Positions 43,490 through 46,819 of a stretch of 64,000 bases of DNA are shown here, piece after piece; within the stretch, counting starts at the first letter, position 1, and every line of letters begins with the position of its first letter. The stretch is taken from NCBI RefSeq assembly GCF_000948985.2, contig NZ_CP059733.1:2108001-2172000 (forward strand), given 5' to 3'. The notes under the pieces are model-generated. The model saw only the letters and a list, made by a program, of their open reading frames with translations. It did no database searches and was not told the DNA's origin. The position numbers were made by a program, and so were the translations under genes. The DNA is from Thalassomonas viridans (GTDB lineage: Bacteria > Pseudomonadota > Gammaproteobacteria > Enterobacterales > Alteromonadaceae).

Positions 43490-44488
43490 ATGGCGACTAT
43501 ATATGAAGTATCAAAACTAGCCGGGGTGTCCCTGGCGACGGTTTCCAGGGTCACCAGCAATAACGCGCTGGTCAGCGAGAAAACCCGGCAGAAAGTTATG
43601 GATGCCATGGAGCAGCTAGGCTACCGTCCCAACTCCATCGCCCAGTCGCTGGCGTCCCGGCGCACCAACAGCGTCGGTATCCTGGTTTCCGAGCTGCACG
43701 GCCCCTTTTTTGGCCAGATGATGTCGGGCATAGAAACCGAGCTCAGGGCCGCCGGCAAGCATGTTATTATCACCACAGGGCACAGTGAGGAAGATAAAGA
43801 AAAAGACGGCATTGAATTTCTTAAAAGCAGAAACTGCGATGCCCTGATAGTGCATGTGGAAGCCGTTTCCGATGACTATCTCAGGGACCTGTGCCGGGGA
43901 GATATTCCCGTTTATATCATGAGCCGCCTGGTGCCGGAGCTGGAAGAAAACTGTATCAGCCTGGATAACGAGCTCGGTGGTTATCTGGCTACCAAGGCGG
44001 TGATTGACCAGGGACACACGGATATCGCCTATATTGCCGGCCAGCAGTTTAAAGCGGATGCCCGTAACCGTTTAATCGGCCATAAACGGGCGCTGGCAGA
44101 GCACAATATTCCTTTTAAGGACTCCCTGGTGTATATGGGAGACTTTAAAGAAACCGGCGGCAGCGAAGGCCTGAAACATTTTGTCGATAACAAGCAAAGC
44201 TTTACCGCCCTGGTATGCGCCAACGATGAAATTGCCTCGGGAGCCATGACTTGTGCCCGTGAACTCGGCTTTGCCCTGCCGCAGGATTTATCTGTTATCG
44301 GCTTTGATAATGTCATCCTGGCCCGCTATATGTACCCTAAGCTCACCACTATAGACAACCCTGTGAATGAGATGGGGCAAATGGCGGCCAAACTGGTGCT
44401 GAAAAATGTCTACCAGCAGGACAAGCTGGTGATAAAACAAATCTTTGAGCCCGGCCTGATCTCCCGGGATTCGGTACTGTCCAGGTAA
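43490..44488 (+). CDS. LacI-family repressor
   Basis: A 332-residue repressor with an N-terminal LacI helix-turn-helix (MATIYEVSKLAGVSLATVSR and GYRPNSIAQSLASRRTNSVGILVSEL) and a sugar-binding domain of the periplasmic-binding-protein fold (NELGGYLATKAVIDQGHTDIAYIAG; LSVIGFDNVILARYMYPKLTTI). Last gene of the beta-glucoside operon. The AAGCGCTT palindromes near 0.65, 5.6 and 40.6 kb are the expected type of target. Confidence 0.93.
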   Translation: MATIYEVSKLAGVSLATVSRVTSNNALVSEKTRQKVMDAMEQLGYRPNSIAQSLASRRTNSVGILVSELHGPFFGQMMSGIETELRAAGKHVIITTGHSEEDKEKDGIEFLKSRNCDALIVHVEAVSDDYLRDLCRGDIPVYIMSRLVPELEENCISLDNELGGYLATKAVIDQGHTDIAYIAGQQFKADARNRLIGHKRALAEHNIPFKDSLVYMGDFKETGGSEGLKHFVDNKQSFTALVCANDEIASGAMTCARELGFALPQDLSVIGFDNVILARYMYPKLTTIDNPVNEMGQMAAKLVLKNVYQQDKLVIKQIFEPGLISRDSVLSR

Positions 44489-44539
44489 AATCCTGTCAAT
44501 GGACCCGGCCCAGCCTCCGCCAGAGCTGGGTCGTTTCAA

Positions 44540-44986
44540 CTAGCGCTCTAAAATCACAGGCCCTGTACCTTGTTGTGCCAGGGTATCCTCCGGATTATAA
44601 AGCGGGCAATTTTTCATTGACAGGCAGCCGCAGCCGATACAGCCGGTAAGGGAATCCCTTAACTTTTCCATATAGGCGATACGCCGGTTCAGCTGTTGCT
44701 GCCATTGCCCGGACAACCCGGCCCAGTCGTCTTTGTCCGGAGTGCGCTGATCCGGCAACTGCTTAAAGATTTTCTGAAGATTGGCCAGGGTAATGCCGAT
44801 TTTCTGGGCCGCCTTGATCACTGAAATACGCCGTAAAACATCACGTTTGTAACGGCGCTGGTTGCCCTGGTTGCGCCAGCTGCGGATCAGGCCTTTTTCT
44901 TCATAAAAATGCAAAGCCGATACCTTAATGCCGCAACGTTTTGCCACTTGCCCTACCGAGAGATTAGCTTCTTCATGTGGTGCCAT
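44540..44986 (-). CDS. soxR: Redox-sensing activator SoxR
   Basis: MerR-family [2Fe-2S] regulator of about 148 residues. The helix-turn-helix is in LSVGQVAKRCGIKVSALHFYEEKGLI; the cluster ligands are in CIGCGCLSMKNC, with the same CxxCxCx5C spacing as E. coli SoxR. An N-terminal extension from a TTG at 45028 is possible; ATG 44986 gives a length nearer the usual 154. A SoxR-type promoter lies at 45056-45086, pointing away from soxR to the small gene at 45143, and SoxS is absent, as in most non-enteric bacteria. Confidence 0.93.
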   Translation of the reverse strand: MAPHEEANLSVGQVAKRCGIKVSALHFYEEKGLIRSWRNQGNQRRYKRDVLRRISVIKAAQKIGITLANLQKIFKQLPDQRTPDKDDWAGLSGQWQQQLNRRIAYMEKLRDSLTGCIGCGCLSMKNCPLYNPEDTLAQQGTGPVILER

Positions 44987-45055
44987 TGCCTGTTTTTCCC
45001 CTGAGTTTTCATTTATCTGTTTTGCCAAGTTTTTTCATATTATTGAAAAAAGTGC

Positions 45056-45086
45056 TTTACCTCAACCTAACCTGAGGTTTTAAGGT
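45056..45086 (+). promoter_or_regulatory. SoxR-dependent promoter
   Basis: CCTCAACCTAACCTGAGG (45060-45077) fits the SoxR box. It lies between a -35-like TTTACC (45056-45061) and a -10-like TAAGGT (45081-45086), with the over-long 19-bp spacer that SoxR promoters need for activation by DNA distortion. It reads toward the small gene at 45143. Confidence 0.85.
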
Positions 45087-45142
45087 GTGCATATCAAAAC
45101 GAATCGGGGACATTCCCGGCAGCAATTTCAGGAGATAAGCAG

Positions 45143-45244
45143 ATGCAAAACATGACCCAGGAAAACCTACAGCAAACTTTGGCGGGCAATCATTTCCTTA
45201 ACCGTTTTTACCGTGTATTTAACGGTGCCATGAGCGGCAAATAA
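45143..45244 (+). CDS. 33-residue SoxR-linked microprotein
   Basis: Short frame starting MQNMTQENLQQTLAGNHFLN and ending RFYRVFNGAMSGK. AGGAGA lies 7 bp before the ATG. It is the first gene downstream of the SoxR promoter and thus a probable member of the oxidative or redox-cycling stress response. It is soluble-looking, with aromatic residues in the second half and no cysteine. The similar second half at 45301-45402 shows that a tandem duplication took place and which part mattered: AGxxFxNxFxxVxxGxMSxK. No family is known to me. Confidence 0.7.
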   Translation: MQNMTQENLQQTLAGNHFLNRFYRVFNGAMSGK

Positions 45245-45300
45245 CGTCGGGCAGGCAAAAAGGGTTATGACTAACAGTTAAAATAACGGGGGTAAATCAG

Positions 45301-45402
45301 ATGAACAATATCAAGCAAATATAAGTGGATAATAACACGGCAGGGACTTATTTTTTTAACGTCTTTTGCTGTGTGTACCACGGCACTATGAGTAGTAAAT
45401 AA
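45301..45402 (+). pseudogene. Decayed tandem copy of the 33-residue microprotein
   Basis: In frame from ATG 45301: MNNIKQI, a TAA stop, then VDNNTAGTYFFNVFCCVYHG and TMSSK with a stop. The C-terminal pattern (AGxxFxNxFxxVxxGxMSxK) and total length of 34 codons match the gene at 45143. The stop at codon 8 breaks the frame, but a GTG directly after it could restart a 25-residue peptide. Confidence 0.6.
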
Positions 45403-45574
45403 AGCATAGACAGTATGGGGAAGAGGGATTTAAGCCTTGGCAGGAGAGTGCTGATAAGGCGTTCGCCGGGGCTAAAGTGCTATAACCATTTGCGTTATGT
45501 GGACAAACCGGATGATCACTCAGTGACGGTTATCTGAGTTTTGAATGGTGAAAGATTTTTTCAGGAGCGAAAAT

Positions 45575-45604
45575 AAAAAATGCAACTCAGAGAGTCGCAT
45601 TTTT
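45575..45604 (-). terminator. Terminator of the CsrB-like RNA
   Basis: On the minus strand: AAAAATGC, ACT/AGT inner pairs with one mismatch, a CTCTG-like loop, GCATTTTTT. The T run is at 45580-45575. Confidence 0.85.
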
Positions 45605-45885
45605 CTACTAGCTTATTTGTGCATCCTGCACCCTTTAGTGTCCTTCATTTCCCTGAAAACCTGTCCATGGCTTATATTGCGTATCCTTACACCTTCCAAA
45701 CCATCCCGGGCAATATATCGTCCTGATATATTCACATAACTGTGTGTTCCCTGGCTTTCCCTGGCCACTTGTATCTATCTTCCTGACAGATACCTGTCCG
45801 TGTTTTCCTTTTGTGATGTCCTTTCACATGACTTCATCCTGAAGCCTTCCTTTAAGGCGTCCTGCCTTGCGTCGTCCTGACAAGG
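45575..45885 (-). ncRNA. csrB: CsrB/RsmZ-like regulatory RNA
   Basis: Read on the minus strand, this region of about 310 nt carries about 18 GGA motifs, many as CAGGA or AAGGA in the loops of small hairpins (for example AATATATC-AGGAC-GATATATT around 45713-45733, GTATCT-GTCAGGAAGAT-AGATAC around 45771-45793, TGTGA-AAGGACA-TCACA around 45812-45828). It ends in a terminator with a run of six T. There is no protein frame. This is the layout of CsrB-family RNAs that bind and titrate CsrA/RsmA. The 5' end near 45885 is set by a -10-like TAATAT (45894-45889) and is approximate. Confidence 0.85.
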
Positions 45886-46050
45886 TAAATATTACGTGAA
45901 TGTAACTATTTTTTTAGGTTAATAATCGGTATGTTTTGCCGGGATAGTGTAAATATATTTTTACGATCGTGGTTTTTATTTTATATTTCAGATGGTTATT
46001 CTTGGTGGAATAGAAATAACGTCGGCAAATGCCATGATGTCGCACCCGTT

Positions 46051-46068
46051 TGTAGGATATGTCTTACA
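46051..46068. promoter_or_regulatory. GacA/UvrY-type upstream activating site
   Basis: TGTAGGATATGTCTTACA differs by one base from TGTAAG-N6-CTTACA, the box bound by GacA/UvrY/VarA upstream of csrB-type genes. It lies about 165-185 bp upstream of the predicted RNA start, the usual distance. The 45403-46159 gap holds no supported protein gene. Confidence 0.75.
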
Positions 46069-46159
46069 AACAAACAGGGCTATCGGACATTAGCCTATAC
46101 CGGGAATATTTTCCCGGAACAGGGTTTTGGCAACAAGCCGGCTGTTTTCGGGTTAAAAG

Positions 46160-46819
46160 TTATTCGGCCCTGGCTTCTTTGAGCTCAACCCGGCTTGTTT
46201 GCGGGCCGGCAAAGCCTTGCAGTAGCGCGTATTGGGCAAAGTAATAGCTGATCATAATAAAAAACTGTGCTTGGGGGATGGTCAGATAAAATTTATTTAA
46301 TCCTATCAGGGCATCGGAGGCCACAAAAGATAAGCCGCCGATCACCATCCAGGCATTGGACTTTTCCGAGAGCAGGGCACAGATGGCCATCACCAGTAAA
46401 ATGCTGATATAGGCAATAACGGGTATCAGCAATTCCCCCAGTCCCGGCAGCAGAAGGCTAAGCACTAAGCCGCCGCCCGCCAGATAAGCAAGGATAGCGT
46501 AGGTTTTGCCGCCATTGGACTTGGCAACCGGCATCAGGGCAAGGATATAGGCGATATGGGCGATAAAAAATGCCCCTAAGCCAAAAATAAACCAGTTGTT
46601 GCTGTCATATCCGAGAAAAAAATCCCCGAACACGGAAAACACTAACCCGGTCAGGAATAATTTCTGGGTTTTATCCGCCGGCCAGCGGCTTACCGCAAAA
46701 ATCAATAACGCCACCGGCAGCATTTTCACCAGCCAGTGTCCCGGGTAAGGGGGGAGCAGGATTGAAATACAGTACAGGGTGGCAGCAAAGATAAACAATA
46801 ATTTTATTCTTGGGCTCAT
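46160..46819 (-). CDS. YhhN/lysoplasmalogenase-family membrane protein
   Basis: A membrane protein of 219 residues with about eight spans, matching the YhhN family (FSVFGDFFLGYDSNNWFIFGLGAFFIAHIAYI; LSFVASDALIGLNKFYL). The mammalian relative TMEM86B cleaves the vinyl-ether bond of lysoplasmalogens; the bacterial role is unproven. Conserved acidic residues in GDFFLG and ASDALIG are present. It stands alone. Confidence 0.87.
   Translation of the reverse strand: MSPRIKLLFIFAATLYCISILLPPYPGHWLVKMLPVALLIFAVSRWPADKTQKLFLTGLVFSVFGDFFLGYDSNNWFIFGLGAFFIAHIAYILALMPVAKSNGGKTYAILAYLAGGGLVLSLLLPGLGELLIPVIAYISILLVMAICALLSEKSNAWMVIGGLSFVASDALIGLNKFYLTIPQAQFFIMISYYFAQYALLQGFAGPQTSRVELKEARAE

Follow-up and report, generated by a model that had tools for sequence, protein, structure and literature searches.

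Redox-cycling compounds oxidise the 2Fe-2S cluster of SoxR, which then opens a promoter with a 19-bp spacer. In enteric bacteria, the gene behind the soxR-divergent SoxR box encodes SoxS, an AraC-type regulator of about 107 aa. The part of the published account drawn on here names SoxS as the only SoxR output in enterics and describes the targets in non-enteric bacteria as a few transporters and small-molecule-modifying enzymes, with no peptide target mentioned in that part (PMC4146615). Our own literature search, covering titles and abstract openings among the matches listed, returned no microprotein as a SoxR target.

We analysed a window of 64,000 nucleotides (the whole stretch of DNA under study, G000:C1:2108001-2172000) from a genome of 7.9 Mb. 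Its SoxR-type promoter (45056..45086, + strand) comprises a -35-like TTTACC at 45056-45061 and a -10-like TAAGGT at 45081-45086 with a 19-bp spacer between them, and the SoxR box, located by pattern as CCTCAACCTAACCTGAGG at 45060-45077, matches 11 of the 12 arm positions (CCTCAA/TTGAGG arms). The canonical box and spacer reported in a preliminary description of this DNA are thus confirmed, bar one arm base. The divergent gene on the - strand (44540..45028; longest frame from 45028, likely start codon at 44986) is soxR, since its product scores 216 bits against TIGR01950 (E 1.6e-64, cut-off 116.9) and carries the C-x2-C-x-C-x5-C iron-sulphur motif as CIGCGCLSMKNC. The same description had noted the absence of a soxS gene, which is correct of the locus, where the divergent gene is SoxR and not SoxS, and extends to the locus rather than to the whole genome. 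No AraC-type domain was matched by ORF1 or by the 25-aa second frame in NCBIfam, and Pfam returned no AraC.

The first short frame behind the SoxR box that bears a Shine-Dalgarno site (AGGAGA, 45130..45135, + strand; AGGAGAT in all four same-genus genomes) is ORF1, which starts with an ATG at 45143 and encodes a predicted 33-aa microprotein, MQNMTQENLQQTLAGNHFLNRFYRVFNGAMSGK (45143..45244, + strand). The strong Shine-Dalgarno site and the short gene had been described beforehand and are both present, as is the second copy that was said to lie 56 bp downstream and to keep AGxxFxNxFxxVxxGxMSxK: its ATG is at 45301, 56 nt past the first stop (45301..45402, + strand), behind a Shine-Dalgarno-like GGGGG (45288..45292, + strand). 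This copy had been called decayed. In the window's genome it is, with an in-frame stop at codon 8 (45322-45324) and two of the three residues of an invariant F-Y-R altered; in the three sister species it is an intact 33-aa frame. Behind it, a hairpin at 45433..45473 (+ strand) marks a possible transcript end; the segment 45400-45490 folds at -27.8 kcal/mol (z -2.75), and the hairpin has no U-run and was not classed as a terminator by a pattern scan. Farther on, at 45569-45902 of the - strand, lies a CsrB/RsmB-like small RNA (RF00018, 55.9 bits, E 7e-14, short of the gathering score, which is 71). It has a terminator-like hairpin at 45605-45575 and runs towards the microprotein unit.

The sister genomes (G001, G002 and G003) share one order of box, both Shine-Dalgarno sites, both frames and divergent soxR, and each frame runs unbroken through 33 codons, so that paired intact copies are the rule among the same-genus genomes seen and the window's genome is the exception. 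Averaged over all pairs of the four species, identity is 0.88 in the box and promoter, 0.62 in the UTR, 0.85 at the first Shine-Dalgarno site (45130-45142), 0.81 in ORF1, 0.68 in the spacer, 0.82 at the second site (45287-45300), 0.78 in ORF2 and 0.57 behind it. The variable columns of ORF1 fall 10/5/20 over the three codon positions. Changes found in the window alone, although few, are distributed 6/1/8 in ORF1 and 5/5/6 in ORF2, the latter fitting a frame that has ceased to be read. For copy 1, pN/pS lies between 0.13 and 0.31 in six species pairs, although third positions approach saturation in those pairs that include the window; it is 0.52 for copy 2 in the one pair computed, and 0.14 to 0.59 over the whole peptide in seven pairs from other genera, some of them above copy 1. 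Judged by its substitution pattern, copy 1 evolves like protein-coding sequence. These data also bear on the idea that the transcript is a dual-function or purely regulatory small RNA in which the frame is incidental. The distance from promoter to hairpin would suit a short transcript of this kind, but conservation peaks on the Shine-Dalgarno sites and frames and dips between them, changes cluster at third codon positions, and a search of the + strand of 44400-46200 against Rfam gave no family at E 1. We consider this reading highly improbable.

Relatives of ORF1 surfaced from reading the DNA upstream of soxR in other genomes, not from sequence search. Searched with TIGR01950, 395 genomes of the family yielded soxR in 201, 295 of the order in 102 and 229 of the class in 11, and 189 upstream regions were examined (110 from the family, 69 from the order and 10 from the class). 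These comprised the best-scoring loci plus 80 and 39 regions hand-picked to spread the genera and so are not a random sample; one of them, L193, repeats L089, leaving 188 sites, and another, L215, belongs to the second SoxR of the window's genome. A box with at least 10 of 12 arm bases is present in 172 of the 189 regions. Behind the soxR-divergent box, a microprotein was recognised in 57 of 189 regions from 25 genera and five families: 21 genera of family f1, the window's included, plus g57 (f6), g84 (f20), g67 (f16) and g117 (f7). The preliminary description had proposed a microprotein family behind SoxR boxes and had allowed that the proposal would fall if no related frame turned up elsewhere; with 54 of the 57 loci outside the window's genus, the proposal stands, and the family is wider than could be seen from this DNA alone. 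None of the 10 class-level regions has a microprotein, and by the tail rule (below) 115 of the 172 boxed regions are without one, indicating that it is dispensable in many lineages.

The 57 loci yield 59 peptides of 21-63 aa, of which 57 are different. Their shared C terminus is [FY]xxL[FY]NxTMxxK-stop, and the N terminus is free in both length and sequence. Among the 52 different sequences that end in MxxK, a set defined by M at -4 and K at -1, N occupies -7 in 41, T occupies -5 in 40, F or Y is at -8 in 42 and L at -9 in 32. A wider rule, with M or L at -4 and one S or P allowed after K, admitted the remaining 5 of the 57 different peptides; one second copy, at L065, failed the rule (K at -7) yet is intact. 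ORF1 belongs to this family: its C terminus, FYRVFNGAMSGK, fits the family end with A for T at -5 and V for L at -9, the commonest variants at those positions (8/52 and 7/52, respectively). The tail codons vary synonymously (T is ACT in 9, ACG in 7, ACC in 14 and ACA in 10; N is AAT in 28 and AAC in 13; K is AAA in 31 and AAG in 21), and all three stops occur (TAA 40, TAG 9, TGA 3), from which we infer that constraint acts on the peptide; such variation beneath a fixed tail is a further point against the small RNA. By sequence comparison, the conserved part is the predicted C-terminal helix with the tail rather than the protein as a whole.

The family set has 103 boxed regions. Their first frame with a Shine-Dalgarno site is short (at most 65 aa) in 57 cases and long in 44, and 2 regions have none; MxxK-stop ends 47 of these 57 short frames, and 10 end otherwise. 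Six loci with short first frames (L059, L070, L090, L093, L114 and L119) stand outside the 57 microprotein loci. Two of them, L090 and L114, look like relatives of the family. The other four (L059, L093, L119 and L070) have different ends behind their SoxR boxes, for example ...MTWQHK, ...WQNPTFHQVSARK and ...WQNPTFQHTSSKK, or a longer tailless frame; they could be relatives that have diverged, or they could form a second kind.

Frames of 33 codons are common, and a chance frame behind a genuine SoxR box had to be weighed. Short frames with a Shine-Dalgarno site end in MxxK in 52 of 67 cases within 200 nt behind the soxR-divergent box, compared with 0 of 50 on the opposite strand and 0 of 54 on the same strand farther along, at 250-800 nt. 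Together with the recurrence of both copies in place in all three same-genus genomes, these controls argue that the arrangement of box and frame is not due to chance, and the recurrence of the microprotein in 25 genera points the same way; the probability that we assign to a chance frame, which the sequence comparisons refute, is negligible.

A profile blind to the box, built from 25 members (alignment A2) and run on 295 family genomes at E 0.001, gave at least 37 matches in at least 34 genomes, 35 of them at the soxR-divergent site; many of these 35 come from genomes that supplied the profile. One match that does not is in G042 (L321, G042:C234), where a 30-aa frame far from soxR has its own SoxR box (11/12) with TTTACC in front; its ATG is 58 nt behind the start of the box, and an FMN-reductase-like gene is next. 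A weak match in G043 is interrupted by two stops and lacks a box within 1 kb (8/12 at best); it was counted as chance. The order-wide profile, also at E 0.001, matched in at least 4 of 237 genomes, all previously found; members found by reading in G494, G593, G073 and G594, genomes that may or may not be among the 237, are absent from the matches listed, and the counts are lower bounds. Outside the genus, the single 33-aa sequence and a genus profile produced weak matches, none convincing. The two of these that were inspected individually proved off target, L007 lying opposite a 429-aa frame and L030 having no listed frame over it. Among the 56 loci from the first searches, only the same-genus ones encode soxR.

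A search of 5.77 billion proteins, which requires shared 5-residue words and is not exhaustive, returned 10 relatives at E 10, all unnamed, hypothetical or uncharacterized. Identical entries for 6 of the 25 members of A2 are among these 10, and ORF1 of the window is absent from the matches, so the suggestion that the family had been missed by gene callers largely stands. Nothing better than E 0.05 was found in Pfam or NCBIfam, where stray weak matches of single members reached E 0.052 at best, and a sequence profile search of the PDB gave no match up to E 10.

A tree was built from 100 different SoxR proteins, 38 of which have a microprotein. Of these 38, 37 group within a single part of the tree that holds 66 rows (support 93/86), and the microprotein label requires at least 12 changes, against a mean of 30.8 when shuffled (0 of 500 shuffles as low); SoxR proteins are short, and many forks of the tree are open. 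One old origin followed by repeated loss is the simplest reading, though not a proven one. SoxR proteins with and without a microprotein (38 of the 100 with) differ at certain columns, but these track descent and we therefore make no claim of co-evolution.

The SoxR outputs of 20 genomes, four of the same genus and 16 others, were surveyed with the promoter pattern at up to 2 mismatches, a setting that misses weaker boxes. The search gave 10 boxes in the same-genus set and 43 in the others, and all 53 were read. A microprotein is found at 20 of the 53, one site per genome and always divergent from soxR (the sister species carry two frames at that one site), and at none of the 33 other sites. 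The reversed pattern hit nothing in any of the four same-genus genomes and between 0 and 3 sites per genome in the other 16. Five genomes (G014, G162, G126, G138 and G436) have a single box each; in G014, G162 and G436, where no close co-directional gene and no VOC homologue were found, the predicted microprotein is the only SoxR output visible to the box pattern. Other boxes were seen along the way. In two genomes of one genus (G154 and G197), SoxR-like boxes with 2 mismatches (L295, L296) precede a low-molecular-weight phosphatase-like gene. G000, G001 and G002 have a second SoxR (G000:C2:979224-979725, L239, plus L236 and L238), whose perfect divergent box stands before a 363-aa frame resembling an RND membrane fusion protein, with no microprotein. 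Approximately 25 kb before the window, at G000:C1:2082572-2082598 (L243), a SoxR-like box with 1 mismatch is flanked by a 144-aa MerR-type regulator lacking the SoxR cysteine spacing and by a 475-aa MFS-like frame.

Leader peptides of the TnaC type have a variable N terminus and a conserved end before the stop and often lie ahead of a functional gene. The microproteins have the same conserved end and free N terminus, a pattern typical of arrest peptides, and translation of the short frame, perhaps with pausing at its end, might control a downstream detoxification gene (VOC or FMN reductase). Here and elsewhere, the names VOC, FMN reductase, MFS and SoxS-like were assigned by eye. An LEHxN-type motif of a glyoxalase-like VOC is found downstream in 39 of the 57 microprotein loci, at a distance of at most 27 nt from the stop in 21 of them, where translational coupling is possible at some loci; the same motif occurs in 53 boxed regions without a microprotein. 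In the other 18 loci, another VOC-type frame is next in three (L126, L207 and L213), a 142-aa frame follows 162 nt on at L107 and a 199-aa open frame 22 nt on at L115; the G042 frame, as noted, precedes an FMN-reductase-like gene.

The remaining 13 loci, from seven genera, have no close co-directional gene. Nine of them show no co-directional frame of at least 80 aa in the 534-1,253 nt read, and at L062 a 59-aa frame 1,075 nt on runs off the end; in the other four (L117, L118, L147 and L155), a co-directional frame starts 432-473 nt on and runs off the stretch. In 8 of the 13, it is the opposite strand that carries the nearest frame of at least 80 aa. In the window, the sole co-directional candidate is a doubtful 83-aa frame 528 nt on, past the CsrB-like gene. 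A leader peptide is accordingly not the general explanation. Sixteen genomes in which no classic VOC follows the microprotein, and 5 controls, were searched for a VOC homologue (E 1e-5), and one was found in 8 of the 16 and in 5 of 5 controls; among the eight genomes without one, G333 and G218 carry a VOC-type gene of a different sort at a separate box. In the four same-genus genomes (G000-G003), the VOC homologue lies elsewhere in the genome with no box found there. The VOC homologue has its own SoxR box in G300 and G367, as does a different VOC-type gene in G333, G218, G344 and G363. These separate boxes, and the loci without VOC, suggest that VOC and microprotein both belong to SoxR biology and that the microprotein is independent of the VOC gene. 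We consider leader-peptide control unlikely.

The 57 different peptides are basic, with a mean net charge of +4.3 and none negative. In a 15-residue stretch of the tail, the hydrophobic moment exceeds that of composition-shuffled sequences by a mean of 1.6 sd (above 1 sd in 43 of 57). Cysteine occurs in only 21 of the 57, so that thiol chemistry is not a common theme. AlphaFold2 models the window peptide as one helix over residues 4-31 (mean pLDDT 72.7, pTM 0.30), which says little beyond 'helix'. A basic, amphipathic, predicted helix behind a stress-type promoter brings to mind TisB, an SOS-induced amphipathic membrane peptide, and by analogy the microprotein could act in or on the inner membrane to lower the proton motive force or the uptake of redox cyclers. 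However, the mean Eisenberg hydrophobicity of the window peptide stays between -0.29 and 0.15 in all 12-residue windows, unlike that of a transmembrane peptide, and the fixed NxTMxxK end points to a specific binding site over general membrane action. This, too, we regard as an unlikely account.

Our preferred reading, to which we assign a probability of approximately 0.8, is that the window frame is a real protein-coding member of a SoxR-box microprotein family and works by the mechanism proposed here. Its first part, that the frame is coding and belongs to a SoxR box, is very probable on the comparative data. Redox-cycling compounds would oxidise the SoxR 2Fe-2S cluster and open the promoter, in keeping with established knowledge of SoxR, giving a short mRNA for one peptide (two in the sister species). 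On its composition and a moderate-confidence model, the product would be a basic peptide with a variable N terminus and an amphipathic C-terminal helix ending in NxTMxxK. The fixed M at -4, K at -1 and stop, beside a free N terminus, suggest that the C-terminal helix and carboxyl end are recognised, and we propose that the redox response is tuned by their docking on a partner protein.

We favour a tuning or feedback part in the SoxR circuit, with SoxR itself or its Rsx/RseC reducing system as the likeliest partner, since the gene keeps its place at the soxR-divergent promoter while other SoxR targets are gained and lost; that one of these is the specific partner is put forward tentatively. The notion of a gene locked to soxR is weakened by the G042 microprotein, which lies away from soxR and shows that what the gene is tied to is the SoxR box, and not soxR in every case. 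More speculatively, and with considerable doubt, the microprotein could stand in for SoxS and alone pass on the SoxR signal, with its C-terminal helix and NxTMxxK end binding a fixed partner and setting either SoxR shut-off or a wider redox response. If so, SoxR signalling in genomes such as G014, G162 and G436 would depend wholly on a peptide 46-48 residues long. For a redox sensor of textbook standing, a widespread microprotein target would alter the view of what SoxR does in marine Alteromonadales-type bacteria. Genomes with a single box and one peptide output offer a simple genetic test system, and a small-frame search anchored on a regulator binding site can reveal families hidden from sequence searches and length cut-offs.

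Compared by description only, the microprotein resembles TisB in its length of about 30 aa, its helix and its predicted induction by stress, and differs in its regulator and, judged on the window peptide, in lacking transmembrane hydrophobicity. It resembles TnaC-type leaders in its variable N terminus, conserved end and frequent gene behind, and departs from them in the 13 of 57 loci, and the window, with no close co-directional gene and in the tandem duplication seen in one genus. MerD is a co-regulator in a MerR family context; if the feedback idea is right, the microprotein would likewise be a small product of a MerR-family-controlled unit that feeds back on it, although no MerD model matched any of 25 microproteins at E 1. 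Like non-enteric SoxR targets, it is encoded directly behind a SoxR box, often beside a VOC/glyoxalase-like or FMN-reductase-like gene, whereas those targets, in the part of the account considered, are transporters and enzymes and here the product is a peptide (PMC4146615). From SoxS it is set apart by its size (21-63 aa), by having no AraC match and by having no Pfam or NCBIfam match better than E 0.05. In family f18, SoxS-like frames (by eye) occupy the soxR-divergent place. It is this place, divergent from soxR, that the microprotein shares with SoxS, and in G014, G162 and G436 it shares with SoxS the standing of sole output, as far as boxes reveal.
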